This document shows, piece by piece, positions 43,063-60,644 of a stretch of 64,000 bases of DNA. Position numbers and translations under genes: made by a program. The notes under the pieces were generated by a model. That model was given only the letters and a program-made list of their open reading frames with translations, was not told the origin of the DNA and searched no databases. Every line of letters begins with the position of its first letter. Within the stretch, counting starts at the first letter, position 1. The DNA comes from Roseomonas gilardii subsp. gilardii (lineage in GTDB: Bacteria; Pseudomonadota; Alphaproteobacteria; Acetobacterales; Acetobacteraceae): positions 1 to 64,000 of the forward strand of contig NZ_CP095555.1 of assembly GCF_023078375.1 (NCBI RefSeq), in the 5' to 3' direction.

Positions 43063-43075
43063 ATTTTGTTAAAAT
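43063..43075. promoter_or_regulatory. Palindromic site between deoC and the DeoR-type regulator
   Basis: ATTTT and AAAAT flank a GTT centre in the otherwise GC-rich 121-base divergent gap. Direct TGTCA elements lie on both sides (near 43050 and 43099). It is a plausible operator for the DeoR protein. Confidence 0.4.
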
Positions 43076-43122
43076 CGTCACATCATGGGGTCGGGTGTCA
43101 AGACTTCCCCGCGAGGAGAGGG

Positions 43123-43920
43123 ATGATCCAGGGCGACACAGCGGTGGGAGAAGCACGCCGGCAGGACCGGTTGCGGCGCCTCGCCGAGATGTTGCGGCGC
43201 AGCGGCCCCTTGCGGCTCGGTGATGCGGCCGCGGCCCTTCACGTCTCCTCCATGACCTTACGGCGGGATCTTTCGCAGTCGCGGCACGGGCTTACCCTCC
43301 TGGGAGGACATGTGCTGCTGCAAGGTGGCCCACCCGCCGAGAGCCCCTATGCGCTGGAGCGGGAGCAGGACAGCCATGCCGCCGCCAAGCGCCAGGCCGG
43401 GCGCCATGCCGCCGCGCTGGTGGAGGATGGAGATAAGTTGTTCATCGACTGCGGCACCACCACGCCGCACTTGGTGGAAGCCCTGGCACCTGGACTGGCG
43501 CTGACCGTGTTCTGCTATGCGCTGAACATCGCGAACCTGCTCAGCCATCGGCCTCGCACCCAGCTCCTGTTGCTCGGCGGGCTGTTCCACCCCGCCTCGG
43601 CCAGCTTCGCTTCGGACGAGGTGCTGGCCGGCCTGCGCCGGTCGCGGATCGACAAGGCCTTCGTCTCGGCCGGCGGCGTGGAGGCAGCCCTGGGTGCCTC
43701 CTGCTCCCATGCCCATGAGGTGCCGGTGAAGCAGGCGGCCATCGCCAGTGCCCGGCGCGCCATCCTCGTGGTCGATGACAGCAAGCTCGGCGCGCGTAAG
43801 CCTGCTGGCTTCGCCCCGCTTTCCGCCTTCGAACGAATCGTCACCAATCCGCCCCGCGAGGCTGCGGCGGCGGACCTTCTACGCCAGGCCGGGGCCCGCC
43901 TCGACCTGGCCGAGGGTTGA
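43123..43920 (+). CDS. DeoR-family transcriptional regulator
   Basis: The protein has 265 residues from the ATG at 43123 with a GAGGAGAGGG site; the open frame further upstream is rejected. Residues about 10-65 form the DeoR winged helix ([38 protein letters not shown]). The sugar-phosphate sensor domain has [17 protein letters not shown] and a [19 protein letters not shown] segment. It probably represses the divergent deoC/ABC operon and the FGGY kinase that follows 22 bases later. Confidence 0.85.
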
Positions 43921-43942
43921 GCCGGGAGCAGGAGTTTCCGCC

Positions 43943-45838: not shown

Positions 45839-46642
45839 TCAGGCCTGTAAGATCCACTCGTGGTCGGGGTCGTTATGGAAGCGCCAGTTCCGCACCGGCC
45901 CCGCCATGACGTTCAGGTAGTAGAGGTCGTAACCGTGGATCGTGGCACAAGGGTGGTAGCCCTTGGGCACGAGTGTCAGGTCTCCATCCTCCAGCAGCAT
46001 GGTCTCGTCCAGGCTGCGGTCATCCGTATAGACCCGCTGGAAGGCGAAGCCCTGTGGAGGGTTGAGCCGGTGGTAGTAGGTTTCCTCCAGGAGGGTCTGC
46101 CGTGGCGGATCGTCCTCGTCATGACGGTGTGGCGGGTAGCTGGAGGTGTTGCCGCCGGGGGTGATCACCTCCACCACCAGCAGCCCATCCGCTTCCGCCG
46201 TCTCCGGCAGGATGTTGGTGACATGGCGGGTGTTGCTGCCCCTGCCCCGCATCTCCTGCGTCACGTCGTCCGGCGCGATGCGCCGGGCCGCGCGCCTGCC
46301 CGCTTCGCCTGGCGCGCTGCAGACGGCCAGCACGGCTTCCTCCGGCCCCTCCCCCACGGCCGTCCAGGGGGCGCCCGCCGGGACATAGACGGAATCCGGC
46401 CGGCCCTCGAAGGGCGAGGCCCGCCCCCCGATAACCCCGAAATCCTGCCCCGCGGCGGCGATGCGCGCCTTGCCGGACACAAGGACGAGGCAGGCCTCGC
46501 GCTCCGGCTCGCCACCCGCCGCCTCGGCCCCGGGCCGCAGCCGGTGAAGGTCGAAGCCGACATAGGTCCAGCCGGCAGTTTCGGGCGTCACATGGAGCAC
46601 GCGGCCGGAATTTCCCTGCGGCCGCAGGCGCAATCTGGACAT
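45839..46642 (-). CDS. iolB: 5-deoxy-glucuronate isomerase
   Basis: The protein has 267 residues from the ATG at 46642 behind GGGAGGCAAGG. It is a double cupin with the metal site in SSYPPHRHDEDDPPRQTLLEE and the second cupin GFAFQRVYTDD / LVPKGYHPCATIHGYDLYYL. It converts 5-deoxy-glucuronate to 2-deoxy-5-keto-gluconate. It is the last gene of the iol operon. Confidence 0.9.
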   Translation of the reverse strand: MSRLRLRPQGNSGRVLHVTPETAGWTYVGFDLHRLRPGAEAAGGEPEREACLVLVSGKARIAAAGQDFGVIGGRASPFEGRPDSVYVPAGAPWTAVGEGPEEAVLAVCSAPGEAGRRAARRIAPDDVTQEMRGRGSNTRHVTNILPETAEADGLLVVEVITPGGNTSSYPPHRHDEDDPPRQTLLEETYYHRLNPPQGFAFQRVYTDDRSLDETMLLEDGDLTLVPKGYHPCATIHGYDLYYLNVMAGPVRNWRFHNDPDHEWILQA

Positions 46643-46659
46643 GCCTTGCCTCCCTCGTT

Positions 46660-47577
46660 TCAAGCGGCGCGCGTTGCCACCGGCCCGGACAGGCGCGGGC
46701 CGAAGCCTGCGTCCTTCAGGAAGCCGACGAGGCTGTCGAAGCCCATGCGGACATAGGTCTCCGGCGGCGCCTTCAGCGGGTCCTGCTCCGCCTCGATGAC
46801 CACCCAACCCGCATAGTCGGGGATCGCGCGGAAGACGGAGACATAGTCCACCGACCCGTCGCCCGGCACGGTATAGACCCCCTCCATCACGGAGCGGAGG
46901 AAGGACCAGTCCTCCGCCATCGCCCGCCCCGCGACCGGCAGGCGCACGTCCTTCGCATGGACATGGGCGATGCGGTCGCGATGGCGCGCGGCCAGGACCG
47001 CCGGATCGGCACCGGCCCAGGTCGCATGCCCCGTGTCGAGCAGCAGATGCACCGCCGCGCCCGTGCCCTGCATCAGCCGGCCGATCTCCGCCTCGGTCTG
47101 CACCACCGTGCCCATGTGGTGGTGATAGACCAGGGCCAGGCCCTCCGCCGCGATCATCTCCGCGAAGCGGGTCAGCCGGGGCAGGAACCGGTTCCACTCG
47201 GCCTCATCCATCACCGGCCGCGCGGAAAGCGGCGTGCCTTCCAGCGGATGCACCGTGCGGGTGCATTCGCAGGTGATAAAGACCTTGCTGCCCAGGGCCT
47301 TCAGCTTCGCCAGATGCGCCTGCGCCGCGGCCAGTTCCGCCTCGGGATCGCGCTCCAGCAGAAAAGTCGAGTACCATCCGCCGACCAGGGCCAGGCCGTG
47401 GCGGCCCAGCACCTCCGCCAGTGCCTTAGGGTCGGAGGGGAACTTGTTGCCGAGTTCCATGCCCTCCAGCCCGATTTCCCTGGCCTGGGTCAGGCACTGC
47501 TCAAGGGTGATGTGGCCGCCGATCTCCGGCTTGTCGTCATTCGACCAGCAGATCGGGTTGGCGCCGATGCGGATCAT
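46660..47577 (-). CDS. iolE: Inosose dehydratase
   Basis: The protein has 305 residues from the ATG at 47577 with a GGAGGG site. It is an AP-endonuclease-type TIM barrel: IGANPICWSNDDKPEIGG, GLEGMELGNKFPSD, YHHHMGTVVQTEAE, HLLLDTGHATWAGADP and HVHAKDVR, which give the metal ligands. It dehydrates scyllo-inosose to the trihydroxycyclohexane-dione used by IolD. It is 52 bases after iolD. Confidence 0.9.
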   Translation of the reverse strand: MIRIGANPICWSNDDKPEIGGHITLEQCLTQAREIGLEGMELGNKFPSDPKALAEVLGRHGLALVGGWYSTFLLERDPEAELAAAQAHLAKLKALGSKVFITCECTRTVHPLEGTPLSARPVMDEAEWNRFLPRLTRFAEMIAAEGLALVYHHHMGTVVQTEAEIGRLMQGTGAAVHLLLDTGHATWAGADPAVLAARHRDRIAHVHAKDVRLPVAGRAMAEDWSFLRSVMEGVYTVPGDGSVDYVSVFRAIPDYAGWVVIEAEQDPLKAPPETYVRMGFDSLVGFLKDAGFGPRLSGPVATRAA

Positions 47578-47629
47578 GCATGTCCTCCCTGGCGCCCGTC
47601 TCTCGTGGCGGGCGCGGTGCTTGTGAATC

Positions 47630-49479
47630 TCAGTCGAAACGCTGGCCCTGCCGCGCGGCGTCGTAGCGGGAGCGGGCGGCCGCGACCTCCGGGCGCTGGC
47701 TGACCTCGGGCACCGCGACATCCCACCAGTGGCCACCTTCCCGGGTGATGATGGCCGGATCGGTATCGATGACGATCACCGTGGCGCGCGGCGCGTTCCG
47801 GGCCTCGCGCACAGCCTGTTCCAACTCGGCCAGGGAGGCGACATGCCGGGCGTCGGCACCCAGGCTGCGCGCATGGGCCGCGAAGTCGATCTCCGGCAGC
47901 GTGTCGTGCCGCGCATCGGCAAGGAGGTTGTTGAAGGCGGCCCCGCCGCATCCGGCCTGAAGCCGGTTGATGCAGCCATAGCCGCGATTGTCCAGCAGCA
48001 CGACGGTGAAGCGCAACCCCAGCATGACCGCGCTCGCCAGCTCCGAATTCAGCATGAGGTAGGAACCATCGCCAACCATGACGACGACCTCCTCCTCCGG
48101 CCGTGCCAGCTTCACGCCCAGCCCGCCGGCGATCTCGTAGCCCATGCAGGAGAAGCCGTATTCGAGGTGGTAACGGCCGGGCGCGGTCGGGCGCCAGAGC
48201 TTGTGCAACTCGCCGGGCAGGCCACCCGCGGCACAGACCACGGTGGCATTCCAGTCGAGCGCACGACCGACGGCGCCGATCACCTGCGCGTCGGAGGGCA
48301 GGGCCGCGCCGTCCGTCGGGGCCATGGCGCGGTCCGCCGCCGCCACCCAGTCACGCTTCAGCGCCTCCGCACCTTCCCGCCAGGCTCCGGGAGCGGCGTA
48401 GTCCGGCAGCCCTTCCTCCAGCGCCGCGAGGCCGGTGACGAGGTCGGCGACCAGGGGCATGGCGCGGTGCTTGCCGGCATCGAAGGGCTGGATGTTGAGG
48501 CCAAGGATCTTCCGCCCCTCCCCCCGGAACAGGGACCAGGAGCCGGTGGTGAAATCCTGCAGCCTTGTCCCCGCGGCAATGATGACATCCGCCTCCTCCG
48601 CCAGCGCATTGGCCGCCGAGCTGCCGGTGACGCCGATGGACCCCATGGCCAGCGGATGCCCGAAGGGCAGTGAGGACTTGCCGGCCTGGGTTTCCGCCAC
48701 CGGAATCCCGTGCCGCTCGGCAAAAGCCGCCAACTCGCCAGCCGCCCCGGCATAGAGGACACCGCCCCCGGCCACGATCAACGGCTTGCGCGCGCCCGCA
48801 GCAGCGCGACGGCGCGGGCGGCCTCGGCCTCGCAGGGACGGGGCCGCCGCCTGTTCCAGACCCGGCGGCCGAAGAATGCTTCCGGATAGTCATAAGCCTC
48901 GGCCTGCACGTCCTGGCACAGGGACAGCGTGACCGGGCCGCATTCGGCGGGATCGGTCAGCACCGCCATGGCGCGTTCCAGCGCCGGGATGATCTGCTCT
49001 GGCCGGGTGATCCGGTCGTAGAACCGGGAGATCGGCCGGAAGCAGTCATTGGCCGAGATGGTGGCATCGCCGAAATCCTCGACCTGCTGCAGCACCGGGT
49101 CCGGGCGGCGGCTGGCGAAGACATCCCCGGGCAGGAGCAGCAGCGGCAGGCGGTTCACATGCGCCACGGCGCAGGCGGTGGCGAGGTTCAGCGCTCCGGG
49201 GCCGATGGAGGTGGTGACCGCCATCATGCGGCGGCGGAAGCTGGCCTTGGCGAAGGCAATGGCCGCATGGGCCATGCCCTGCTCGTTATGCCCGCGCAGG
49301 ACCGGAAGACGCTCACGCTCCTGGTACAGCGCCTCGCCGAGCGCGGCGACGTTGCCATGGCCGAAAATGGCCCAGACACCGGCGAAGAGCGGCACTTCCC
49401 GGCCATCGATCTCGGTGAACTGGTTGGCCAGGAAGCGCGTCAGCGCCTGCGACATGGTGAGGCGGATGGTGCCGGTCAT
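47630..49479 (-). pseudogene. iolD: 3D-trihydroxycyclohexane-1,2-dione hydrolase with one-base frameshift
   Basis: The ATG at 49479 has an excellent GGAGGGG site. The N-terminal TPP-binding domain (GHNEQGMAHAAIAFAKAS, TSIGPGALNLATACA) runs to a TGA at 48778. The rest (KPLIVAGGGVLYAG, the central domain, then the TPP/Mg site VMVGDGSYLMLNSELAS...LLDNRGYG) continues in another frame to 47630. One missing base in the GCGCGCGC tract at 48788-48797 explains the shift, and with it restored the protein would be about 616 residues, normal for IolD. If real, inositol growth through this pathway would be blocked. A sequence error is equally likely. Confidence 0.85.
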
Positions 49480-49540
49480 TTCCCCTCCGGATGGTCTTTC
49501 GTTGTTTCCCGGAGCGGATACCGTGCTCCGGCGCATGACG

Positions 49541-51466
49541 TCAGGCCGCCCGTGCCTGGCGCAGGGCCTGCCAGCCCTCCACGAGCCGCCCGAAGCGCGC
49601 GGCCATCTCGGCTATGGCATCCTCGTCCCCGATCCGGCCGGCGAGCCAGTTCTCCACCGCTTCGGCAAAAATGGTGCGCCCGACCGCGAAGCCGCGGACC
49701 AGCCGCGACAGGCTGGCCTGGCGGAAGGACTGCATGAGTTCGGCTTCCGGTGCCTCCAGGCCGAGCAGCAGGATGCCGCGGCAATAGGGGTCATTCGCCA
49801 GAATGGCTTCATCGATGGCGTGCCAGGCTGCCGGACCCTGATTGGCTTCCAGCTTCCACAGGTCGGGCCGGATGCCCAGTGCATAGAGGCGCCGGATCGC
49901 CAAGGCGACGGTGTCGTCGCCCAGTGGACCGGTTTTGGCGGCGATGATCTCGACCATCAGCTCCAGCCCGGCGCCGCGCGTGGCTTCATGAAGCTGGAGC
50001 AGCGCCTGCTCCTGCTGCTCGCGCAGTCCGGCCGGATCGTCGGGGTGATAGAAGCAGAGGCATTTGACCGTGTGGTTCAACGGCCAGTTGCGCAGATGGC
50101 TGCCGAGATCCGCCATGCCGTCGAAAGCCAGTGGCCGTGAGCCGGGCTTCTCGACGGGCCGCCCGATCCAGAAGTTGCGCGGCACCTTCGCGAAGGCTTC
50201 GGTGCCGTAGGTGCCGTCGATCAGCACGCCATAGCCGTCCCGTCCCCCGGCCACACGGGCCGCGGCCTCGACGGCGAGGGCCTTGAACCTGTCGATGCGC
50301 TGGCGCGGCACACCGAGGCGGTCGGCCAGGGCCTCGATCTGGGCGCGGTGGTCGCAGGCAAGGGCGAGGATGCTTTCCGGTTGCGGCCGGCGCGTCGTGG
50401 CCCAGTGGATGTGGTTCAGATCGGCATCGCGCCGCAGGGCACGATGCGGGCTGCCATGCCGCAGGAAGTGCTGCAGTTCCGGAAAGGTCGGGATCTCGGG
50501 GGAGCAGAGCAGGCGCGACACGGCGAAGGCGCCGCAGGCATTGGCCCAGGTGGCGGCGGTGGACCAGCTTTCGCCACCGAGCCAGCCACGCAGCAGGCCG
50601 GACATGAAGGCGTCGCCCGCGCCCAGCACGTTATAGACCTCGATCGGGAAGCCCTGGCCGAGGATGCCGTCCTCCAGCCTGTCGCTGATCGGGCCGTCAT
50701 AGACGATGCAGCCCATGGGGCCGCGCTTGAGCACGATGGTGGCGGCGGAGACCGAGCGGATCGTCCTGAGCGCGGCCAGAAGGTCCTCTGCCCCGGAAGC
50801 GATCAGGATCTCCTCTTCCGTGCCCACGATCAGGTCGCATTCGGGCAGGACCGGCCGGAGCTGCGCGGACACGCGATCGGACTTCACATAGCGTGCGAAG
50901 CCCTCCGCGTGTCCCGCGAGGCCCCAGAGATTGGGGCGGTAATCGACATCGAGCACGACCCGTGTACCGGCCTCCTTCGCGGCGCGGATCGCCTTCCATT
51001 GCGCCGCCCCGGTGTTGGGACGGGAGAAATGCGTGCCGGTGACGACCAGGGCGTGGGAGGAGGCGATGAAGGCGGGGTCGATATCCTCCTCGGAAAGCGC
51101 CATGTCGGCGCAATCCTCGCGATAGAAGATCATCGGCGAGGTATGGTCCGCCTCCACCGCCAGCAGGACCAGTGCGGTCAGGCGTTGCGGGTCGGTCACG
51201 ACGCCTCGCGTCTCGACGCCTTCGCGTGAGAGCTGCTCGCGGATGAAGTTCCCCATCTGCTCCGCGCCGACCCGCGTTACCAGGGCCGAACGCAGCCCCA
51301 GCCTGGCCGTACCGATGGCGATATTGGCGGGGCATCCGCCGACCGACTTGGCGAAGGAGGCGATGTCCTCCAGCCGCGAACCGATCTGCTGTCCGTAGAG
51401 ATCCACTGAGGAACGGCCGATCGCGATGACGTCGAGCAAGCGAGTTTCGGCTGTATCATCCATCAT
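49541..51466 (-). CDS. iolC: 5-dehydro-2-deoxygluconokinase fused to DUF2090 aldolase-like domain
   Basis: The protein has 641 residues. Residues about 10-335 form the PfkB kinase, with DVIAIGRSSVDLYGQQIGSR, SVGGCPANIAIGTARLGL and the catalytic NVLGAGDAFMSGLLRG. From about 345 onward a DUF2090 domain follows (ILALACDHRAQIEALADRLG, VKCLCFYHPDD, LELMVEIIAAK), a TIM-barrel fold expected to cleave the kinase product to dihydroxyacetone phosphate and malonate semialdehyde. The fusion is common in alphaproteobacterial inositol operons and probably replaces a separate iolJ. No iolA is in the window. Confidence 0.9.
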   Translation of the reverse strand: MMDDTAETRLLDVIAIGRSSVDLYGQQIGSRLEDIASFAKSVGGCPANIAIGTARLGLRSALVTRVGAEQMGNFIREQLSREGVETRGVVTDPQRLTALVLLAVEADHTSPMIFYREDCADMALSEEDIDPAFIASSHALVVTGTHFSRPNTGAAQWKAIRAAKEAGTRVVLDVDYRPNLWGLAGHAEGFARYVKSDRVSAQLRPVLPECDLIVGTEEEILIASGAEDLLAALRTIRSVSAATIVLKRGPMGCIVYDGPISDRLEDGILGQGFPIEVYNVLGAGDAFMSGLLRGWLGGESWSTAATWANACGAFAVSRLLCSPEIPTFPELQHFLRHGSPHRALRRDADLNHIHWATTRRPQPESILALACDHRAQIEALADRLGVPRQRIDRFKALAVEAAARVAGGRDGYGVLIDGTYGTEAFAKVPRNFWIGRPVEKPGSRPLAFDGMADLGSHLRNWPLNHTVKCLCFYHPDDPAGLREQQEQALLQLHEATRGAGLELMVEIIAAKTGPLGDDTVALAIRRLYALGIRPDLWKLEANQGPAAWHAIDEAILANDPYCRGILLLGLEAPEAELMQSFRQASLSRLVRGFAVGRTIFAEAVENWLAGRIGDEDAIAEMAARFGRLVEGWQALRQARAA

Positions 51467-51530
51467 AGACGTTCCGTTCCATCTTGCTTGTTTCGGGAGG
51501 ACATGACCGCCATGAGGTCATTTGCCTGAA

Positions 51531-52406
51531 TCAGGAACCGCGCCGGACCTCCGCCACCATGACGGTCAGCGTCATGGCCAGGGCGAGACTGGCGGAGAGG
51601 AGGCGGAAGCCATGAAGATCGGCCTCCACCACCTCGAACCAGAGAGAGGATTTCGCCACGAGCGGGCTGAAGGGGCTGTCGGTGATCGCGACCAGTGGAG
51701 CATTGCGCTCCGCCACCATGTGCGCATGGGCAATCGTGGTGGAGGCATAGGGCGAGAAGCTGATCGCCACGGCCGCATCGCGCTTCGTGACGAAGGAAAG
51801 GGTTTCCTGGTCGGTTCCCGCCGGCGAGCCGATCAGCACGTTCTTCACGCCGAGCTTGCCGAAGCTGTAGCTCATATAGGCGCTGATCGGGAAGGAGCGG
51901 CGTTGCGCGATCAGGTAGATCGTATCGGCGGCCGCGAGAAGCTCAGCCGCGCGCTCGATCTGGCCGACATCGATCCGGTCATGCAACTGGGACAGGGAGC
52001 GCGTGGCGGCCTGGAAGAATCCGTCCAGGATGTTTGCCGCGAGCGAGCTCCGCCCCTCCGCCTGCTTCAGCGAGAGCAGGCGATCGTCGTAATTCGAGAC
52101 CTGGCTGCGCAGGCGATCGCGAAACAGGAGTTGGAGGTCGGAGAAGCCGTTCAACCCGACGGATTTGGAGAAGCGCACCAGGGTGGATGGTTGCACCCCT
52201 GCCCGCTCCGCGATTCCGGCCGCGGTGCCAAGGGCGACTTCCTCGGGCTCCGCCACGACGAAGGAGGCAACCTGAGCCAGGCGCTTGGGCAGCTTCACGC
52301 GACCCGATAGAAGCAGGTCGCGCAATTCCTGGTAGCTCCGCGGCGGTGCCGCAGCCCCAAGAAGACTGGCCGTGTCCTCCACAATATCGGGATCGTCCTG
52401 GTTCAT
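51531..52406 (-). CDS. RpiR-family regulator of the inositol genes (IolR type)
   Basis: The protein has 291 residues from the ATG at 52406; an ATG at 52451 is possible. The N-terminal RpiR helix-turn-helix (LPKRLAQVASFVVAEPEEVAL, AERAGVQPSTLVRFSKSVG) is followed by a SIS domain (ADTIYLIAQRRSFPISAYM, AVAISFSPYASTTI). In alphaproteobacteria the inositol repressor belongs to this family. It sits between iolG and iolC in the same operon, so it probably autoregulates and responds to a pathway phosphosugar. Confidence 0.85.
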   Translation of the reverse strand: MNQDDPDIVEDTASLLGAAAPPRSYQELRDLLLSGRVKLPKRLAQVASFVVAEPEEVALGTAAGIAERAGVQPSTLVRFSKSVGLNGFSDLQLLFRDRLRSQVSNYDDRLLSLKQAEGRSSLAANILDGFFQAATRSLSQLHDRIDVGQIERAAELLAAADTIYLIAQRRSFPISAYMSYSFGKLGVKNVLIGSPAGTDQETLSFVTKRDAAVAISFSPYASTTIAHAHMVAERNAPLVAITDSPFSPLVAKSSLWFEVVEADLHGFRLLSASLALAMTLTVMVAEVRRGS

Positions 52407-52471
52407 GGCGAGGCGCCTGCCTGCTTCGGCATGCCTGGTCCTGACGGCCATTTGCTCATCCTGTGCACCCG

Positions 52472-53464
52472 TCAGATCCGGACCGGGGCCCCTGTCTGCC
52501 ACGATGCCGTCGCGGCATCCGCCAGGCGCTGGGCGAGAAGGCCGTCCCGCCCGGATGGCGCAGGCGGCGTTCCCGTTTCGACATGCGACAGGAAGGCGGC
52601 CAGTTCCTCGCGGTAGGCATCGGCATAGCGCTGGAGGAAGAAGTCCTGGACCGGATCGGCCAGGAAACCAGCGCCGGTTGCGATCTCCACGGTGGATTTG
52701 TGGATGTTGCCGGCACGCAGCATGCCCTTGGAGCCATGCACCTCGATGCGCTGGTCGTAACCATAGCTGGCGCGGCGGGAGTTCGAGATCTGGCAGATGC
52801 GGCCCTGGGCGGTCTTCATCAGCACCGCGGCGGTATCGGCATCCCCGGCCTGCCCGATGGCCGGGTCCACCAGGGCCGATCCGATGGCATGGACCTCCAC
52901 CACCTCGTCGCCGCCAAGAAGGAAGCGCGTCATGTCGAAGTCGTGGATCATCATGTCGCGAAAGATCCCGCCGGAGGAGGCGACATAGGAAGCCGGGGGC
53001 GGTGCGGGGTCGCGCGAGATCACGGTCACCATCTCCACCTCGCCGACCATGCCTTCCACGAGGCGGCGGCGCAGTTCCGCGAAGTTCGGATCGAAACGGC
53101 GGTTGAAGCCGATCATCAAGGGCACGCCGGCCTTCTCCACCACGTCGAGGCAGGCGGCGATTCTTTCGGATGACAGGTCCACCGGCTTTTCACAGAAGAT
53201 CGCCTTGCCGGCGCGCGCGGCCCTTTCGATGAAACCGGCATGGGTGGTCGTGGGCGTGCCGATGATGACGGCATCCACATCGGGGCTTTCGATCGCGGCA
53301 TCCACGTCGCGGACCTCGGCTCCGGTCATCTGCGCGAGCTTCTCGGCCGCCGGCCGATGCGGATCGGCCACGGCAACAAGATGCGCGGCCGGCGAAGCTG
53401 CCACGTTCAGGCCATGGATGGCACCGATGCGACCGGCACCCAGAACAGCGATCCTCATCCTCAT
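52472..53464 (-). CDS. iolG: Inositol 2-dehydrogenase
   Basis: The protein has 330 residues from the first of two close ATGs. The Rossmann motif is RIAVLGAGRIGAIHG, followed by the Gfo/Idh/MocA lysine site FCEKPVDLS and GGIFRDMMIHDFDMTRFLLG, with the catalytic Asp-His pair in IHDFD. It oxidises myo-inositol to scyllo-inosose with NAD. It is the first gene of the iol operon, with a promoter at 53522-53550. Confidence 0.9.
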   Translation of the reverse strand: MRMRIAVLGAGRIGAIHGLNVAASPAAHLVAVADPHRPAAEKLAQMTGAEVRDVDAAIESPDVDAVIIGTPTTTHAGFIERAARAGKAIFCEKPVDLSSERIAACLDVVEKAGVPLMIGFNRRFDPNFAELRRRLVEGMVGEVEMVTVISRDPAPPPASYVASSGGIFRDMMIHDFDMTRFLLGGDEVVEVHAIGSALVDPAIGQAGDADTAAVLMKTAQGRICQISNSRRASYGYDQRIEVHGSKGMLRAGNIHKSTVEIATGAGFLADPVQDFFLQRYADAYREELAAFLSHVETGTPPAPSGRDGLLAQRLADAATASWQTGAPVRI

Positions 53465-53521
53465 CCCCCGTGGCGGGCCCTCAGGCCCAGCATCAGCCGT
53501 AATTTATCTTCCGTGGGGATC

Positions 53522-53550
53522 ATAATGGAATGAATATGCCGTATTGGCAA
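53522..53550 (-). promoter_or_regulatory. Sigma-70-like promoter of iolG
   Basis: On the minus strand TTGCCA (53550-53545) and CATTAT (53527-53522) are separated by exactly 17 bases, 58 bases upstream of the iolG start. The -35 matches five of six and the -10 four of six consensus positions. Confidence 0.5.
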
Positions 53551-53630
53551 GATGAGATCGGAGCTGATCGTTCTCTCTCCCGTCTCGCCCCGAGTGCTTC
53601 CAATGCTCAACTGATGTCCTGCGCAGAGCC

Positions 53631-53645
53631 TTTTTCCTGGAAAAA
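53631..53645. promoter_or_regulatory. 15-bp palindrome TTTTTCC-T-GGAAAAA
   Basis: Seven-base perfect arms surround a single T. It contains a TTCC/GGAA core and lies upstream of the iolG promoter. It is a candidate binding site of the RpiR regulator or of a pleiotropic factor. Confidence 0.45.
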
Positions 53646-53738
53646 TTAATCTATATCAGCACATTAATGGATACTGCCCGTCACTTTGGTCAGGGTCTCC
53701 ATCTCGCGAGGAAGGCGAATTACCATTCGGTATTTTTG

Positions 53739-53753
53739 TTCCTGACACAGGAA
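53739..53753. promoter_or_regulatory. 15-bp palindrome TTCCTG-ACA-CAGGAA
   Basis: Six-base perfect arms are separated by ACA; flanking CCATT and AATGG extend the symmetry imperfectly. It shares the TTCC...GGAA core with the palindrome at 53631-53645. Confidence 0.45.
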
Positions 53754-53992
53754 AATGGAATTGACAGTTCAGCAGGCCGAGCGGAGAGTGATGGAAAGGA
53801 CGTGGCCTGGGACCTCAGAGCCCGCATCCAAGGAGGGAGAATGTCCTCATGATCCGTGCAAAGACGCAGCACGATCGTGTCGCGACCGAGTTCGCACCAC
53901 ACCTCCGGCGATGCACAGCGACATGCCCGTTCGGCATTTCGCGGCTAGACCAGCGTATCTGCATGGTCCGCTCGTACGCGTTCCTCCACGGG

Positions 53993-54011
53993 AAGGAATG
54001 TGCTGTTCCTT
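53993..54011. promoter_or_regulatory. Inverted repeat AAGGAA-N7-TTCCTT
   Basis: It contains GGAA-N7-TTCC, one base wider than the GGAA-N6-TTCC site I recall for alphaproteobacterial IolR. It lies 68 bases upstream of the -10 of the uptake operon, so an RpiR protein bound here could control that operon. Confidence 0.45.
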
Positions 54012-54038
54012 AGCACCAGAAATCATCGCGCTTCGTCA

Positions 54039-54084
54039 GTATTTCAAATACACGAACGACTTCGCGATCAATAAAAATTATAAT
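54039..54084 (+). promoter_or_regulatory. Promoter of the uptake operon: GTATTT-C-AAATAC palindrome and TATAAT
   Basis: A perfect TATAAT lies at 54079-54084, 43 bases before the binding-protein ATG. No good -35 is found at 16-18 bases, and a perfect 13-bp palindrome (54039-54051) sits just upstream of that position. This suggests an activator-dependent promoter or an overlapping operator. Confidence 0.5.
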
Positions 54085-54127
54085 AACCAAACAACCAACA
54101 CAGAAAACCAAGGGGAAGAAGCGGGAA

Positions 54128-55156
54128 ATGCTCAAGAACACGCTGAAGACATTTGTTTTCCTGGGCGCTCTCGTGGCGGGTGGCGGCAGCCTCCATGCCG
54201 AGGGCGGCAGTCTGGTCATGTATTGCGGCGTGAATGAGCAGTGGTGCCGTGCCGCCGCGAACGCTTTCCAGGGAGAGACAGGCATCCGCGTCGATATGAC
54301 GCGCCAGAGCGCAGGCGAGATCTACGCCCGCCTGCGTGCCGAGAAGAACAATCCGCGCGGCGATGTCTGGTTTGGCGGCACGGGCGATCCGCATCTGCAG
54401 GCCGCTTCCGAAGGGCTCACGGAAGCCTATCAATCCAAGAGCCTCGACCAGTTGCAGGACTGGGCCCGCAAGCAGGCGGAGCGCTCCGGATACCGGACTG
54501 TCGGCCTGTACATGGGGGCGCTTGGCTACGGCTATAACGAGACCGAGTTGCAGCGCCGGAAGATCGCGGCTCCGAAGTGTTGGGCCGACCTCCTGAAGCC
54601 GGAGTTCAAGGGGGAGATCCAGGTCGCCGATCCGAACGCCTCAGGGACAAGCTGGACCATGCTGGCCACGCTCGTGCAGCTGATGGGTGAGGACCCGGCC
54701 TTCGATTATCTGAAGAAGCTGGATGCGAATGTTGACCAGTACACCAGCGCGGGTGCGGCCCCGGCGCAGGCCACGGCGCGTGGCGAGACCATGGTCGGGA
54801 TCGCTTTCCAGCATGATGTCATCGACGCGGCCAAGCAGAACCCTCATGTGAAGGTGGTCTCCCCCTGCGAGGGCACTGGCTACGAGATCGGTTCGATGAG
54901 TATCGTCCAGGGCGCCCGCCATCCGGAGGAGGCCAGGCGCTTCTACGAATGGGCGCTGACGCCGGCGGCGCAGAAGATCGCGGCCAGCAACGGTTCCTTC
55001 CAGGTCCCGTCGAACAAGGCGACGCCCGTGCCGCCGGAGGCCCCTGATATCAGCCAGATCAAGCTGATCAACTATGATTTCGAGAAGTACGGCTCTTCGC
55101 AGGAACGCGGGCGGCTCCTGTCACGCTGGACCCGCGAAGTCAAGAACGCACGCTGA
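54128..55156 (+). CDS. Family 1 ABC solute-binding protein of the AfuA/FbpA group
   Basis: The protein has 342 residues with signal MLKNTLKTFVFLGALVAGG...HAEG and a GGGGAAG site. The mature part has LVMYCGVNEQWCRAAANAFQ, GEIYARLRAEKNNPRGDVWFGG, YMGALGYGYNE and QATARGETMVGIAFQHD, as in ferric-type and sugar-phosphate-binding AfuA proteins. The Tyr pair that binds iron in FbpA is not evident. The linked phosphatases favour a phosphorylated sugar or inositol phosphate as ligand rather than iron. It is the first gene of the five-gene operon. Confidence 0.8.
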   Translation: MLKNTLKTFVFLGALVAGGGSLHAEGGSLVMYCGVNEQWCRAAANAFQGETGIRVDMTRQSAGEIYARLRAEKNNPRGDVWFGGTGDPHLQAASEGLTEAYQSKSLDQLQDWARKQAERSGYRTVGLYMGALGYGYNETELQRRKIAAPKCWADLLKPEFKGEIQVADPNASGTSWTMLATLVQLMGEDPAFDYLKKLDANVDQYTSAGAAPAQATARGETMVGIAFQHDVIDAAKQNPHVKVVSPCEGTGYEIGSMSIVQGARHPEEARRFYEWALTPAAQKIAASNGSFQVPSNKATPVPPEAPDISQIKLINYDFEKYGSSQERGRLLSRWTREVKNAR

Positions 55157-55167
55157 CCGGCATCATC

Positions 55168-57363
55168 ATGCGAAAGGCGCCGATGGGAGCGTCGCGTCGC
55201 GGCGCCGTATGGTGGCTGGTGGCTTCGGCCGCCGCCCTGTTCCTCCTGCCCTGGTATGGCCTGGAAGACGGCCTGTTCGGGGGCCGCTGGAGTTCGCTCC
55301 CGGCCGTGGCGGAGGCCGTGCTGAATGGCCGTATCTGGCTGTGGCCCCTGTTCTTGCCCATGCTGCTGGCTGCCTGGGGCATCTGGCAGCGGGCGCCGAA
55401 GATCCTGGTGATGGCGGGCCTTGCCGGTCTGGCCTGGCTGGTTCTTGAGGCCTTCGGCCTACGGCAGCACGGCCTGCATTTGGGCGGGCTGTCCGCGCTG
55501 CTGGAAGGGAGCGCGAGCCAGCCGGCACTGGGCTGGGGTGCGTTGCTCTATGCCGTGGCCACCATGATGCTCCTGGCCTACGGGCTTGCGTGGCAGGGCT
55601 GGTGCAAGGGTGAGGTCTTCACCGTCGGCGCGATCGGCCTCGTCTGCGGTTCCATCCTGGTCTTCGTCGGCTACCCGGTCCTGTCCATCCTGACCTCTGC
55701 CTTCCAGGACAATGACGGGCATATGGACCTGCTGCTCTTCGCCCGGAAGATCACGGATGAATCCATCTGGAGCCTGGATTGCCTGGCGGGCGGCCGCAGT
55801 TGTGGTGTCGCGTGGAACTCGCTGGCCCAGGGTATCGTGGTCGGCGTGCTCAGCACCCTGCTGGGCTTGGCCTTCGCCCTGGTCGCGACCCGCACGCGCT
55901 TTCCCTTCCCGCGCCTGCTGCGCATCATGTCCGTGTTGCCGGTCATCACCCCGCCCTTCGTGATCGGCCTGGCGCTGATCCTGCTTTTCGGCCGTGCCGG
56001 CATGGTCTCCAACCTGTTGCAGGACTGGTTCGACCTGCCGCGTTCCCGCTGGATCTATGGCATGCCGGGGCTGACCATCGCGCAGCTCCTGGCCTTCACG
56101 CCGATTTCCTTCCTGGTGCTCCAGGGCGTTCTGCAGGGCGTGAGCCCCAGCATGGAGGAGGCCTCGCAGACGCTGCGCTCGGGGCGCTGGCGCACCTTCC
56201 GCCATGTCACCTGGCCACTGATCCGACCGGGCCTCGCCAATGCCTTTCTGATCGCCTTCATCGAGAGCCTCGCGGATTTTGGCAATCCGATCATGATCGG
56301 CGGCAATTTCCGGGTCCTCTCCACCTCCATCTACTTCGCCGTGGTCGGTGCCTCGCACGACCAGGGACAGGCGGCGGTGCTGGCGATCGTCCTTCTGGTC
56401 TTCACCCTGTCCGCCTTTCTGTTGCAGCGCTTCTGGATCGGCCGACGTTCCTATGTGACCCTTTCCGGCAAGGGCGATGCCGGGCTGCCCCTGCAACTCC
56501 CCACGGGGCTGCGGCGCCTGTGCCTGGCCATCGTGATGCCCTGGGTCCTGCTGACGGCGGCCGTCTATGCCATCATCCTGCTCGGCGGCTTCGTGAAGGC
56601 AATCGGGAACGACAACAGCTTCACCTTGCAGCACTTCCTGACCGCCTTCGCCATCCAGCACGGTGCGGCCGGATGGTTCCTCGCCGGCTCGGCCTGGAAC
56701 TCGCTGCTCACGACGCTGATGGTGGCCCTGTTGGCCATGCCGCTAACCGCGGCGCTGGGCATCCTGACGGGCTACCTGCTCAACCGGCAGAACTTCGCCG
56801 GGCGGGGAGTCTTCGAGTTCCTGACCATGATGAGCTTCGCCATCCCCGGAACGGTGATCGGCATCAGCTATATCCTGGCCTTCAATGTCCCGCCGCTGGA
56901 GCTCACCGGCACGGCGCTGATCATGGTGGTGGCCTTCGTGTTCCGGAACATGCCGGTGGGCATCCGGGCCAGCATCGCCAATCTGAGCCAGGTGGACCGG
57001 TCGCTGGACGAGGCCTCGTTGACGCTCGGCGCGCGCTCGGCCTCGACCTTGTGGCGGGTCATCCTGCCGATCCTCCGGCCGGCCGTGGCCACCTCCATGG
57101 TCTATGCCTTCGTGCGGGCGATCACCTCGGTCAGTGCGGTGATCTTCCTGGTCAGCGGCGAATACAACCTGGCCACGGTCTACATCGTCGGACGCGCGGA
57201 GTTCGGGGAGTACGGCATCGCCATCGTCTATTCCGCGGTGCTGATCGTCATCATGGTCGCCGCACTGATGGCCATTCAGGCGCTGGTGGGTGAGCGCCGC
57301 ATCGGGCGGCGCAAGGCTGCGGAGGCAGCCGCCCCGGCACGGCCCGCAGTGGCAGGAGCATGA
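55168..57363 (+). CDS. Fused two-domain ABC permease, AfuB/FbpB type
   Basis: The protein has 731 residues. After four N-terminal helices, two permease domains follow in one chain, each with a coupling loop: SPSMEEASQTLRSGRWRTFRH near residue 325 and VDRSLDEASLTLGARSASTLW near residue 610. This fused form is typical of AfuB, which imports hexose phosphates, and FbpB, which imports iron. It overlaps the ATPase gene by four bases. Confidence 0.9.
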   Translation: MRKAPMGASRRGAVWWLVASAAALFLLPWYGLEDGLFGGRWSSLPAVAEAVLNGRIWLWPLFLPMLLAAWGIWQRAPKILVMAGLAGLAWLVLEAFGLRQHGLHLGGLSALLEGSASQPALGWGALLYAVATMMLLAYGLAWQGWCKGEVFTVGAIGLVCGSILVFVGYPVLSILTSAFQDNDGHMDLLLFARKITDESIWSLDCLAGGRSCGVAWNSLAQGIVVGVLSTLLGLAFALVATRTRFPFPRLLRIMSVLPVITPPFVIGLALILLFGRAGMVSNLLQDWFDLPRSRWIYGMPGLTIAQLLAFTPISFLVLQGVLQGVSPSMEEASQTLRSGRWRTFRHVTWPLIRPGLANAFLIAFIESLADFGNPIMIGGNFRVLSTSIYFAVVGASHDQGQAAVLAIVLLVFTLSAFLLQRFWIGRRSYVTLSGKGDAGLPLQLPTGLRRLCLAIVMPWVLLTAAVYAIILLGGFVKAIGNDNSFTLQHFLTAFAIQHGAAGWFLAGSAWNSLLTTLMVALLAMPLTAALGILTGYLLNRQNFAGRGVFEFLTMMSFAIPGTVIGISYILAFNVPPLELTGTALIMVVAFVFRNMPVGIRASIANLSQVDRSLDEASLTLGARSASTLWRVILPILRPAVATSMVYAFVRAITSVSAVIFLVSGEYNLATVYIVGRAEFGEYGIAIVYSAVLIVIMVAALMAIQALVGERRIGRRKAAEAAAPARPAVAGA

Positions 57364-58478
57364 GCGTGAACCAGATCCGACGCGACCAACCCAGCCACGG
57401 GATCGAGAAGATGAGCGGACATCCGGCCCTGGAGTTCCGGGGGGTCGTCAAGCGATATGGACCGGTCACGGCGGTCCAGGCGGCTGACTTCGCCATCGCG
57501 CCCGGAAGCCTGGTGACGTTGCTGGGGCCGTCCGGTTGCGGCAAGACCAGCACCCTCCGGCTGATGGCGGGGCTGGAGCACCCGTCGGAGGGTCGCATCC
57601 TGATCGACGGCCAGGATGTGACCCATCTCTCCGCCGCGGAACGCGACGTTTCCATGGTGTTCCAGTCCTACGCGCTTTTCCCGCACATGACGGTGATGGA
57701 GAATGTCTGCTACGGCCTGCGTGCCTCCGGCATGCGCCGTGCCGAAGCCGAGGCGCAGGCGGCGGACAAGCTGCTGGCCGTCGGCCTCTCGGGGTTCGAG
57801 AACCGGCTGCCTTCCGAACTGTCCGGCGGGCAGCAGCAGCGGGTGGCGGTGGCCCGCGCCATTGTCCTGAAGCCGAAGGTGCTGCTCTTCGACGAACCCC
57901 TGTCCAACCTCGACGCCAAGCTGCGCCGGCGCGTGCGGGCCGATATCCGGGACCTGCAGCAATCGCTGGGCCTGACCGTCGTCTATGTGACCCACGATCA
58001 GGAGGAGGCCCTGGCCGTCTCCGACCGGATCATCGTCATGCGCGGTGGTGTCATCGTCCAGGATGGCGATCCGCGCGACCTGTATGAGCGCCCGAACAGC
58101 CGCTTTATCGCCGACTTCATCGGCAATGCGAACCTCCTTCCGGTGACGGTTCTGCGTCGTGACGAGGCGCTGGCGGAGGTCAGCCTGGGTTCGCTGGCGC
58201 TTGCCTTGCCGCATCGGAATTTGCCGGATGGCGGCGCCTTGCTGGCCGTCCGTCCGCAGAGCGTGGCCCTGCGCCCCGGCACGGCCGGAAGCGGCGAGTT
58301 GCCGGGACATCTGCGCAAGGCGGCCTATCTGGGGGAGCATATGGAATACGAGGTGGTGCTGGATGGCTCTGGGGCGGAGCTTCTGGTCAAGACATCGGAT
58401 TGCGCCGCGGTGATCCCGGAGGGTTCCAGTGTGGCGGTTCGGATCGACCCCGCCGGTGCGGTGGTGGTGCCGGCATGA
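57360..58478 (+). CDS. AfuC/FbpC/PotA-type ABC ATP-binding protein
   Basis: The protein has 372 residues from the ATG at 57360 (overlap ATGA); a second ATG at 57411 would drop a non-conserved leader. Motifs are Walker A GPSGCGKTS, signature [15 protein letters not shown], Walker [21 protein letters not shown]-switch VTHDQEEALAVSD, and a C-terminal TOBE domain with LAVRPQSVAL. It drives the fused permease. Its stop overlaps the IMPase ATG. Confidence 0.9.
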   Translation: MSVNQIRRDQPSHGIEKMSGHPALEFRGVVKRYGPVTAVQAADFAIAPGSLVTLLGPSGCGKTSTLRLMAGLEHPSEGRILIDGQDVTHLSAAERDVSMVFQSYALFPHMTVMENVCYGLRASGMRRAEAEAQAADKLLAVGLSGFENRLPSELSGGQQQRVAVARAIVLKPKVLLFDEPLSNLDAKLRRRVRADIRDLQQSLGLTVVYVTHDQEEALAVSDRIIVMRGGVIVQDGDPRDLYERPNSRFIADFIGNANLLPVTVLRRDEALAEVSLGSLALALPHRNLPDGGALLAVRPQSVALRPGTAGSGELPGHLRKAAYLGEHMEYEVVLDGSGAELLVKTSDCAAVIPEGSSVAVRIDPAGAVVVPA

Positions 58479-59266
58479 CGGACGGAATCGCCCGCCGCCT
58501 GGAAGCGGCCATGGAACTCGCGCGCGAGGCCGGCGCGATCGCGCAGGACATGCGGGCGAAACTGGGGCCGGTCGAGACGAAGAATCCGATCGATTTCTGC
58601 ACTGCCGCAGATCATGCGGTGGAGGAGATGCTGCGCGCCCGCCTCACTGCGGCCTTCGGCGACAGCATGATCGGCGAGGAGGATGGCGGGGAGGCTTCCG
58701 ACAGCGTCTGGGTGGTGGACCCGATCGACGGCACAGCCAACTACATCCATGGCGGTCCGCGCTGGTGCATCTCGCTTGCCTATCTCCGCGCGGGGCAGGT
58801 CGAACTGGGCGTGATTCACCAGCCGGGGGAGGACCGCCTTTTCACAGCGCGGCGCGGGCATGGTGCTTTCCTCAACGGGAAACGTCTGAGTGTCAGCCAT
58901 CTGTCTCATGGCGCCGCGCCGCTGGTGGAGGTCGGGTGGTCGGCGCGGAGGAGCCTCGCCTCCTATGGTGGTTTCCTCGCCCAGTTGACCGAGGCGAATT
59001 ATGAGTTCCGGCGTCACGGCTCGGGAGCGCTCGGCATGGCGGATGTCGCCGCTGGGCTGAACGATGCCTATGCGGAACTTCATATCAATGCCTGGGACGT
59101 GCTCGCCGGCCTTCTCCTGGTGCAGGAGGCCGGGGGCGTGACCAACGATTTCCTGGCTGGGAGCGGTTTGACCCAGGGGAATCTGGTGCTGGCCGCCACG
59201 CCGGAGATCGGCGCGTCCCTGGCCCGGATGCTGGGGACCAGTCTCCTGCCGCAGCAGGGGAGTTGA
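58475..59266 (+). CDS. Inositol monophosphatase family phosphatase
   Basis: The protein has 263 residues. The metal and catalytic motifs are intact: G67-E68-E69-D70, D82-P-I-D85-G-T87 (VVDPIDGTANYIHGG) and W207-D208 with A211-G212. There is no signal peptide, so it works in the cytoplasm on imported substrate. Position in the importer operon and opposite the iol genes argues for myo-inositol phosphate as substrate. Histidinol phosphate or fructose bisphosphate are alternatives in the family. Confidence 0.85.
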   Translation: MTDGIARRLEAAMELAREAGAIAQDMRAKLGPVETKNPIDFCTAADHAVEEMLRARLTAAFGDSMIGEEDGGEASDSVWVVDPIDGTANYIHGGPRWCISLAYLRAGQVELGVIHQPGEDRLFTARRGHGAFLNGKRLSVSHLSHGAAPLVEVGWSARRSLASYGGFLAQLTEANYEFRRHGSGALGMADVAAGLNDAYAELHINAWDVLAGLLLVQEAGGVTNDFLAGSGLTQGNLVLAATPEIGASLARMLGTSLLPQQGS

Positions 59267-59321
59267 GATCAGGCAGCCTGCCATCCTGCCTGAGACGGAT
59301 CGCAAGAAACGGGAGGGAAAC

Positions 59322-60644
59322 ATGTGGGGAAAACGAGGCTTCGTCGCCGCGGCCTTGTGGGCCGGACTCGCGGCCATGCCGCAAATGGCCAAGGCCGAGG
59401 AAATGGTCATGGAGAAGGCCGTGACCCTGATGCGGCATGGGGTCCGCCCGCCGACCGAATCCGAGGAACTGAAGCATTACACACAGAAGGCCTGGCCGAG
59501 TTGGCCGGTCGCCGATGGGCAGCTCACGCCACACGGGGCTGAGGCCATTGCGCGGCTCGGGCAGTGGGAACGAGGCTATTACGCGGAGGCCGGGCTGCTT
59601 CCGGCGCAGGGTTGTCCGGACAAGGCCAGCGTCTTCGCCTGGGCCAATCGCGGGTATCAGCGCACCATCGACACGGGCAAGGCCATGCTGGCCGCCATGT
59701 TCCCGGGCTGTGACCTGACGGTCGGGGTGGCGCCGGGCAAGGGCCATGATCCCCTCTTCACGGCCCGGCAGACCGAGACCGGCCGCATGAATCCGGCCAC
59801 CGCACGCGCTACGATCATGGAGAAGATGGGCGGCAGTTTCGACCGGCCGCGTGCCGAACTCGCTGCGCTTCTGCCGCCGCTCCAGGCGGTTCTGGATTGC
59901 TGCTCCGCCACGCTCTGCCCGGACAAGGCCAAGCCATGCCAGTTCGGCGATCTGCCCTGGAGCATCGCGACGTCGAGCAATGACGGGAATGTCGATTTCA
60001 AGGGCCCGCTGAATGTCGGCTCCACCATCGCGCAGGTCATGCTGCTGGAATATCTCGAGGGAATGCCGGCGGACCAACTGGGCTGGGGACAGGTCGCGAC
60101 ACGGGAGGATGTGATCCGCCTTTCCGCCATCCGGCTGCTGAAGTACCGCTACATGGAGGGCGTGCCCTACATCGCACGACATGGCGCCTCGAACATTGCC
60201 CGCCAGATCGCCCTTGCGCTGGAACAGGGGGGCGGCATCAAGCGGGATGACAGCGATATGGGGCCGCCGCCGGCGAAGCTGGTCCTGTTCGTGGGCAGCG
60301 ATACGCAGATTGCCGAACTTGGCACACTGCTCGGTGCGCATTGGAGCGTCGATGGCTATCTGGAGGATGAGACGCCGCCCGGGGGTGGTCTGAGCTTCGA
60401 GCTCCTGCGCGGGAAGGATGGCAAGCATTATGTGCGCAGCCTGTTCCTGGCGCAGACGCCGGACCAGATCCGCGGTGCCCAGGTGCTGGATGGCAAGAAC
60501 CAGCCGTCGCGCCATGTTGCGGTGCCGGATTTCTGCCGGGACAGCCTGAAGGAAGACGCCTGCCCCGTCGAGGTGTTCAGCAAAGGGCTCCGCGACAGGA
60601 TCGATGTCACCGCTGTTTCCGTCCCGGCCTGGCGGCAGCAGTGA
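59322..60644 (+). CDS. Secreted histidine acid phosphatase (AppA/Agp family), candidate phytase
   Basis: The protein has 440 residues with signal MWGKRGFVAAALWAGLAAMP ending AKA-EE. The catalytic motif is R38-H39-G40-V41-R42-P43-P44, the nucleophile His39. A conserved Arg lies in NRGYQRT. The usual HD proton-donor pair appears as S326-D327 (LFVGSDTQIAEL), keeping Asp but losing His. TPPGG in the C-terminal region is like AppA. In the periplasm it would release phosphate from phytate, glucose-1-phosphate or similar. The neighbours point to inositol phosphates. Specificity cannot be read from sequence. Confidence 0.8.
   Translation: MWGKRGFVAAALWAGLAAMPQMAKAEEMVMEKAVTLMRHGVRPPTESEELKHYTQKAWPSWPVADGQLTPHGAEAIARLGQWERGYYAEAGLLPAQGCPDKASVFAWANRGYQRTIDTGKAMLAAMFPGCDLTVGVAPGKGHDPLFTARQTETGRMNPATARATIMEKMGGSFDRPRAELAALLPPLQAVLDCCSATLCPDKAKPCQFGDLPWSIATSSNDGNVDFKGPLNVGSTIAQVMLLEYLEGMPADQLGWGQVATREDVIRLSAIRLLKYRYMEGVPYIARHGASNIARQIALALEQGGGIKRDDSDMGPPPAKLVLFVGSDTQIAELGTLLGAHWSVDGYLEDETPPGGGLSFELLRGKDGKHYVRSLFLAQTPDQIRGAQVLDGKNQPSRHVAVPDFCRDSLKEDACPVEVFSKGLRDRIDVTAVSVPAWRQQ

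Follow-up and report, generated by a model that had tools for sequence, protein, structure and literature searches.

An AfuABC-type importer predicted to carry inositol phosphate into inositol catabolism in Roseomonas gilardii

IbpA-IatAP is an ATP-binding cassette (ABC) importer of the CUT2 family in Caulobacter that reportedly takes up free inositol and feeds inositol (iol) catabolism. AfuABC is an ABC importer of sugar phosphates composed of a periplasmic substrate-binding protein (SBP), AfuA, a permease of fused type, AfuB, and an ATPase, AfuC. According to PMC4546632, AfuA binds fructose 6-phosphate, glucose 6-phosphate, and sedoheptulose 7-phosphate with Kd values of 8, 23, and 57 nM, and glucose, fructose, and phosphate are left unbound. 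The same paper states that AfuA requires His205, Asp206, and Glu229, by which its authors define homologues; further contact residues were taken from PMC8427247.

The locus described here occupies 45.8-60.6 kb of a 64-kb window, the first 64 kb of a 424-kb contig (NZ_CP095555.1) in the two-contig, 4.62-Mb genome of Roseomonas gilardii subsp. gilardii. It combines an AfuABC-type importer with an inositol monophosphatase (IMPase) family enzyme, iol genes, and a histidine acid phosphatase (HAP). The importer is probably a carrier of inositol phosphate, most likely the monophosphate, that feeds the IMPase and the iol enzymes. This is a strong prediction drawn from many genomes, and the wider interpretation, in which phosphorylated inositol would be imported, dephosphorylated in the cytoplasm, and catabolized by the iol pathway, is supported. 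The features are as follows.

45839..46642, minus strand: iolB, 5-deoxy-glucuronate isomerase (TIGR04378, 320 bits, cut-off 205)
46660..47577, minus strand: iolE, myo-inosose-2 dehydratase (TIGR04379, 365 bits, cut-off 290)
47630..48781, minus strand: C-terminal piece of the frameshifted iolD gene (TIGR04377 positions 229-615, below the family cut-off)
48778..49479, minus strand: N-terminal piece of iolD (TIGR04377 positions 1-224, below the family cut-off)
49541..51466, minus strand: iolCJ, 5-dehydro-2-deoxygluconokinase fused to a DUF2090 aldolase (NF047869, 719 bits, cut-off 600)
51531..52502, minus strand: RpiR-family regulator (Pfam HTH_6 and SIS), putative iol repressor
52472..53464, minus strand: iolG, inositol 2-dehydrogenase (TIGR04380, 435 bits, cut-off 355)
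53465..54127, no strand: shared divergent control region, 663 bp between the arms, putative operator role
54128..55156, plus strand: AfuA-family periplasmic SBP, predicted inositol-phosphate binder (PDB 4r72, 2.4e-88; His/Asp/Glu triad kept)
55168..57363, plus strand: AfuB-type fused permease, 731 aa (Pfam PF00528, two BPD_transp_1 stretches)
57360..58478, plus strand: AfuC-type ATPase with a TOBE domain (Pfam PF00005, PF08402)
58475..59266, plus strand: IMPase-family phosphatase (PF00459, 185 bits, cut-off 27; DPIDGT and WDVLAG present)
59322..60644, plus strand: secreted HAP, AppA/phytase-like, with Ser-Asp (SD) in its second motif (PDB 4arv phytase, 1.3e-58; NF007552, 240 bits, cut-off 585)

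Linkage of the importer to iolD and IMPase genes

The linkage was examined in 394 genomes of the order with completeness of at least 90, using thresholds of E <=1e-70 for the SBP family and E <=1e-100 for iolD, defining linkage as placement within 15 kb, and treating related genomes as independent in all counts. The SBP family is present in 76 and iolD in 112 of these genomes; 48 of the 76 importer genomes hold iolD and 28 do not. In 37 of the 48 genomes that have both (37 of all 76 importer genomes), no more than 6.5 kb separate the best SBP from iolD, which argues for inositol-phosphate import. An IMPase homologue sits within 15 kb (actually 4.3 kb) of the best SBP in 31 of the 48, both linkages occur together in 28 of the 48, and in the 28 importer genomes that lack iolD the best SBP never has an IMPase in its vicinity.

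The dependence of the IMPase on the importer is a second argument for the same reading. Of the iolD genomes that carry the importer, 31 of 48 have an IMPase gene no more than 15 kb from iolD; of those lacking the importer, 2 of 64 do (Fisher 3e-13, with kinship ignored). In one of the two exceptions, G310, the stretch separating iolD from the IMPase gene encodes an SBP_bac_8 protein, two permeases, an ATPase, and a LacI regulator; the other, G098, has a weaker IMPase match (8.6e-36) 10 kb from iolD. The sequence-only reading had proposed a neighbor search in Acetobacteraceae; carried out across the order, it placed both linkages above chance. A second IMPase was dropped as a marker of the pathway because its homologue is also common without the importer and some members may be HisN: a homologue of the IMPase query P0003 at E <=1e-42 is found in 48/48 genomes with importer and iolD, 4/28 with the importer alone, and, by a by-eye count, 44/64 with iolD alone.

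Twenty loci of the order were read closely. Gene content, order, relationships, and conserved linkage are direct observations. The conserved core is the importer with the iol genes, often joined by the IMPase, and the HAP is a rare addition. A congener locus (L042) matches the gene order of the window over the stretch between iolB and the IMPase gene and lacks the HAP, L043 and L044 run iol genes-SBP-permease-ATPase-IMPase on a single strand, and L060 and L061 place the IMPase gene directly before the SBP gene. Eleven genomes with both importer and iolD are unlinked; for at least one of them (G275) the sole reason is a contig that begins within iolD (L043). Nine of the 14 relatives in which SBP and iol genes lie together have no adjacent IMPase gene, which counts against inositol-phosphate import, although at three of these (L049, L052, L058) the contig breaks off within the SBP or permease gene or shortly past it. 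Six loci (L046, L048, L050, L053, L055, L056) have no iol gene in the fetched part. Sodium/phosphate transporter genes stand beside or near the importer at L048, L051, and L040, which would fit a release of phosphate in the cytoplasm. On a plasmid of Neorhizobium NCHU2750, iolGCDEB is convergent with a Ugp-like ABC system, an IMPase gene, and afuCBA.

A thiamine pyrophosphate enzyme (78-83% identical to the L047 copy) is encoded beside or near the AfuC-type ATPase at L047, L050, L053, L055, L057, and L059; the L047 and L057 enzymes, the two tested, pass the NF004807 cut-off.

Binding protein, IMPase, and the iol arm

The window SBP is a member of the AfuA family whose translation begins with what reads as a signal peptide. 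Its nearest solved relatives in a phmmer search against PDB are 8x1a (2.9e-94), AfuA (4r72-75, 2.4e-88), and P5PA (1.3e-72), with iron binders far behind at 1e-13 or weaker, and its alignment with AfuA runs end to end. Together with the fused permease and single ATPase gene, an arrangement shared with AfuABC, these relatives bear out the AfuABC-type importer of the sequence-only reading.

The AfuA triad is retained as His229, Asp230, and Glu253, and alignment mapping shows that AfuA residues Tyr103, Gln269, Gly59, Thr60, Ser148, Gly149, Thr150, Gly185, and Phe203 are also kept. Of the AfuA phosphate contacts, Thr150 persists as Thr174 and Ser37 corresponds to Ala62. The other changes are Ser9 to Gly, Thr11 to Asn, Gly36 to Ser, Ser184 to Ala, Ile186 to Ala, and, beside the triad, Leu204 to Gln. 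The retention of AfuA pocket residues argues for inositol-phosphate import. In all 15 iol-linked SBPs of the order that were examined (14 relatives and the window), the phosphate-site residues Thr85, Ser172-Gly173-Thr174, and Gly209 (window numbering) are kept, and position 61 is Ser. Among the best SBPs of importer genomes without iolD, with 19 of 28 such genomes covered, 17/19 carry the AfuA-like Gly-Ser at 61-62 with Thr210 and Val228, and 2/19 (L056, L142) carry Ser61. Ser61 also occurs at the six order loci without an iol gene in the fetched part, L056 included. Judged by these alignments, the pocket has shifted together with iol linkage, not perfectly, and most of the phosphate site has been kept.

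The IMPase-family enzyme carries DPIDGT and WDVLAG, which match the IMPase motifs DPIDGT and WDxxAG. No signal peptide is seen in its translation, in keeping with the cytoplasmic enzyme that had been proposed from the sequence. It is one of six PF00459 genes in its genome. In the IMPase tree it falls within an eight-row clade (support 99/97) with the AfuABC/HAP-linked enzymes of Inquilinus and Azospirillum, those of L042-L044, and L160. A sister relation (99/95) joins the IMPases linked to AfuABC in Neorhizobium, Pantoea, and Shinella with those linked to HAP and a major facilitator superfamily (MFS) importer in Klebsiella, Pseudomonas, Winslowiella, Vibrio, and Pleomorphomonas. This topology suggests that one IMPase lineage was kept while the importer was exchanged.

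The two arms diverge from one 663-bp region, and the gene calls and coordinates on which the two-armed picture was first based check out. The minus arm reads iolG-rpiR-iolCJ-iolD-iolE-iolB, and the plus arm reads SBP, fused permease, ATPase, IMPase, HAP. On the plus arm, neighboring genes either overlap or are separated by 11 bp; the one departure is the HAP gene, which starts 55 bp past the IMPase gene. Joint control of both arms by the RpiR regulator is suggested by the divergent layout and by two copies of AATGGAAT at 53524 and 53754, which are the sole two in the window (its reverse complement has none) and are retained in congener L042. GGAA-N6-TTCC is an operator of other IolR regulators; it is absent from the control region and occurs once in the window, at 2846.

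The iol operon named by the sequence-only reading holds for iolG, iolE, iolB, and iolCJ, which pass their NCBIfam cut-offs, and not for an intact iolD, which is split by a frameshift into two overlapping open reading frames, neither passing. In L042 (SBP 96% identical; 88-96% gene by gene) iolD is in one frame, and the split reflects either a true frameshift or a mistake in the assembly. With a true frameshift, the strain could not complete inositol breakdown through that gene. The iolD of G368, a further genome of the order, is split as well. The replicon also encodes, at 220.8 kb, an iolA-type dehydrogenase that passes its cut-off, and fusions of IolC to DUF2090, as in iolCJ, are described in PMC9007349.

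The phosphatase, exchanged importers, and rival readings

The HAP is a phosphatase of the AppA type whose start reads as a signal peptide and whose active-site motif RHGxRxP is present as RHGVRPP. The AppA-like assignment made from the sequence is sustained by this motif and by the 4arv match; the NF007552 score falls short of its cut-off, and the second motif reads GSDTQ, with SD where most relatives have His-Asp (HD). Relatives were collected from GTDB species contigs (246 found, best 80 taken), with neighbors read within 8 kb, less at contig ends. Among these 80, the second motif is HD in 58, SD in 21, and ND in one. SD is found in both Inquilinus HAPs and in the MFS-linked Pleomorphomonas HAP; the Azospirillum TSH64 HAP has HD. 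Because 21 of the 80 carry it, SD is a trait of a HAP group and no lesion of the window gene. SD enzymes such as the window HAP may attack phytate or may prefer lower inositol phosphates.

HAP genes recur with IMPase genes and different importers. Eight of the 80 loci combine an IMPase with a UhpC/GlpT-type MFS importer (Pleomorphomonas, five Pseudomonas, Winslowiella, Vibrio), three combine AfuA with an IMPase, and one combines an IMPase with a second type of ABC importer; an importer adjoins 12 of the 13 HAP loci that have an IMPase. Beta-propeller phytase, confirmed by Pfam in L089, L114, and L118 and identified elsewhere by similarity to these, occurs with a TonB receptor and iolD in seven loci, with a UhpC/GlpT-type MFS and TonB in three, with TonB alone in one, and with an IMPase in one. 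TonB stands alone in three loci and with iolD in two. The order SBP-permease-ATPase-IMPase-HAP, beside a divergent LacI-family gene, is repeated in Inquilinus limosus (L062 and L063) and Azospirillum TSH64 (L083), where SBP identity to the window is 75, 74, and 63% and HAP identity 53, 52, and 42%; no iol gene was found within 8 kb at any of the three. In Klebsiella L034 the order is LacI-IMPase-MFS-HAP, and iol genes are absent from the 21 kb that were read. The five MFS proteins tested (L034, L064, L088, L089, L136) match the PgtP, UhpC, GlpT, and UhpT models below their cut-offs. The version with the second ABC system reads porin-HAP-permease-ATPase-SBP-IMPase::DSP-LacI on plasmid pKP121-2 (L029) and in Klebsiella indica (L128). 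That the set of HAP, importer, and IMPase has been rebuilt with other importers, UhpC/GlpT-type MFS among them, is a further argument for inositol-phosphate import.

Several related arrangements were also observed. The second ABC system (SBP of ~367 aa, permease of ~608 aa; L029 12528-13967, L036 1465-10401, L037 4670-11959) is accompanied by an IMPase, a DSP-type phosphatase (fused to the IMPase in Klebsiella), and a LacI-family regulator, with a metallophosphoesterase in addition in L037. Sphingomonad-type loci (L089, L098, L103) hold beta-propeller phytase, HAP, TonB receptor, and UhpC/GlpT-type MFS genes, and an IMPase was not found within them. In Azospirillum B510 (L028 10001-11162) the HAP matches in two pieces and looks broken; it adjoins iolC-iolD-iolE and a sugar ABC system.

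HAP phytases end at inositol 2-monophosphate, so that access to the carbon ring would benefit from an importer combined with a phosphatase in the cytoplasm. In the proposed route, whose substrates, direction of flux, and regulation are inferred, the secreted HAP would act in the periplasm or outside the cell and strip phosphates off phytate or off lower inositol phosphates. The AfuA-type SBP would then capture the small leftover product, most likely inositol monophosphate, gripping the ring through His229/Asp230/Glu253 and the phosphate through Thr174 and its neighbors, as modeled on AfuA. The fused permease and ATPase would carry this product in intact, the cytoplasmic IMPase-family enzyme would take off the last phosphate, and IolG, E, D, B, and CJ, with the iolA-type dehydrogenase elsewhere on the replicon, would degrade inositol by the established pathway. 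The cargo may be inositol 1-, 2-, or 3-phosphate, an inositol bisphosphate, or glycerophosphoinositol. Relatives without the HAP would use inositol phosphate made by others. It is also reasonably likely that a dedicated and widespread carbon route for inositol phosphate has been assembled convergently from a phytase-like phosphatase, a recruited importer, an IMPase, and, where present, iol genes, with importers drawn from three or four groups: the AfuABC type, the second ABC system, the UhpC/GlpT-type MFS, and the Pot/Phn-like ABC system in G310.

A number of observations weigh against inositol-phosphate import by this locus. The trim-import-dephosphorylate-catabolize scheme first proposed keeps its importer, IMPase, and iol portion across the order, and its HAP arm does not share that spread: a HAP (E <=1e-15) occurs in one of 76 importer genomes, that of the window alone, and in 12 of 150 family genomes, where the other 11 are at <=35% identity. 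In the HAP itself the Asp of the second motif is kept and the His replaced, and 51 of the 80 HAP loci lack any sought partner. The product of HAP phytases, Ins(2)P, is one on which well-studied IMPases are poor or slow, a real tension between two pieces of general background. The window IMPase scores 128.8 bits against a cut-off of 332 (NF008027) and 135.1 against 275 for the HisN model, so the family does not fix its substrate. Its clade includes L160 (genome G011), with no importer in the 14 kb read, and the iol-linked enzymes of L060 and L061 fall outside that clade; a single IMPase origin is further opposed by the separate position of the second-ABC-linked IMPases and by several long branches. 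Some close relatives of the importer have no iol or IMPase genes nearby, among them a 59% identical AfuABC system of Pseudoroseomonas cervicalis with neither, besides the importer genomes that lack iolD, and in this assembly the window iolD is itself frameshifted. At the phosphate site, the replacement of Ser37 matters, since S37A costs AfuA ~40-fold in Kd (PMC4546632), and a Glu lies two residues past Ala62 where AfuA has Ser.

Four other cargoes or functions were considered. The importer might take free inositol, with the IMPase and HAP serving other purposes, as would suit the nine of 14 iol-linked relatives that have importer and iol genes and no adjacent IMPase (L045, L047, L049, L051, L052, L054, L057-L059). 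This is quite improbable given the conserved phosphate site in the iol-linked SBPs, the failure of AfuA to bind unphosphorylated glucose or fructose (PMC4546632), and an IMPase linkage that follows the importer and not iol alone. It is decidedly unlikely that the system imports hexose or heptose phosphates like AfuABC and stands by iol through chance, with the IMPase as a sugar phosphatase: the fold family and triad are the same, and IMPase-family enzymes can act on sugar phosphates, but the iolD linkage, the importer-dependent IMPase linkage, and the contrast between the Gly61/Thr210 and Ser61 pockets speak against it.

A phosphodiester or other derivative (glycerophosphoinositol, a cyclic or di-inositol phosphate) that is split inside to inositol phosphate is an unlikely cargo. 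The Ugp-like ABC system of Neorhizobium, which lies between the IMPase gene and iolB, would fit it, as would Klebsiella L035 (3011-9675), where another ABC system clusters with a metallo-beta-lactamase-fold hydrolase, LacI, and an IMPase; no phosphodiesterase gene is seen among the genes of the window locus, and AfuA, whose contacts are kept here, binds small monophosphates. Ferric iron import with unrelated neighbors is scarcely credible and was rejected because the SBP is AfuA-like and iron binders are distant in the PDB search, even though ferric and PhnT2 models give the ATPase its highest scores (short of their cut-offs) and a relative's permease was deposited as an "iron ABC transporter permease". 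The L035 cluster, considered by itself, may take up another inositol phosphodiester or phosphate.

A free-inositol importer was also sought near the locus. The nearest importer is the following system.

Window 37643-45574, next to the iol arm: CUT2 sugar ABC importer, DeoR regulator, FGGY pentulose kinase

The CUT2 system itself, at 37.6-42.3 kb, has a binding protein closest to 5bra and was set aside as a free-inositol importer for that reason and for the pentulose kinase alongside. Seven Peripla_BP_4 proteins are encoded in the genome, and of the three examined the other two appear to be of the ChvE and ribose types. The remark that no typical inositol permease is adjacent thus holds for the genes checked around the locus; MFS inositol permeases of the genome, which may still encode a free-inositol importer, were not searched for.

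If inositol-phosphate import is correct, the AfuABC version would make inositol phosphate a cargo of an ABC importer for the first time, a function that the sequence-only reading had called new. No bacterial inositol-phosphate importer was found in the open-licence PMC literature, with subscription papers and preprints outside the search, and within the same scope no account was found of bacterial import of the last phosphorylated piece for its carbon ring. The main text of an iol-cluster survey (PMC9430895) does not contain the word monophosphatase, and the passages of PMC12838507 that discuss inositol release from phytate mention no inositol-phosphate importer. PMC11219571 reports a Klebsiella that uses phytate as sole carbon source, and a word search of its text returned no mention of transport, uptake, operon, gene cluster, or monophosphatase; a similar search of PMC5866894 returned nothing on end products. 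Among the forms of organic phosphorus, phytate is a major one. An importer of phosphorylated inositol would account for the use of phytase products as a source of carbon, provide a marker for phytate-carbon users among the bacteria of soil, plants, and the gut, and lead to corrected names for genes that at present carry an iron-importer annotation.

Comparison with known systems

AfuABC of Actinobacillus and Citrobacter (PMC4546632) resembles the window system in its SBP, fused permease, ATPase, ring-binding triad, and most phosphate contacts. Unlike AfuABC, the window system is linked to iol, IMPase, and HAP genes and has seven pocket substitutions, Ser37 to Ala included. P5PAB is a pyridoxal-phosphate importer (PMC8427247) whose SBP belongs to the same family, in which the cargo changes while the phosphate site stays; P5PA has Ala at both positions of the Asp/Glu pair that the window SBP keeps.

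AppA-type phytases (4arv, 1dkl) share with the window HAP a signal peptide, RHGxRxP, and similarity over nearly the full length, whereas the window enzyme has SD in place of HD and scores below the NCBIfam AppA cut-off. The Klebsiella L034 phytase-like locus likewise clusters a phosphatase, an importer of phospho-compounds, and a cytoplasmic IMPase, and differs in its MFS importer and in the lack of iol genes in the stretch read. IbpA-IatAP also feeds iol catabolism but belongs to CUT2; the CUT2 system near the window locus is closest to 5bra and has a pentulose kinase beside it.

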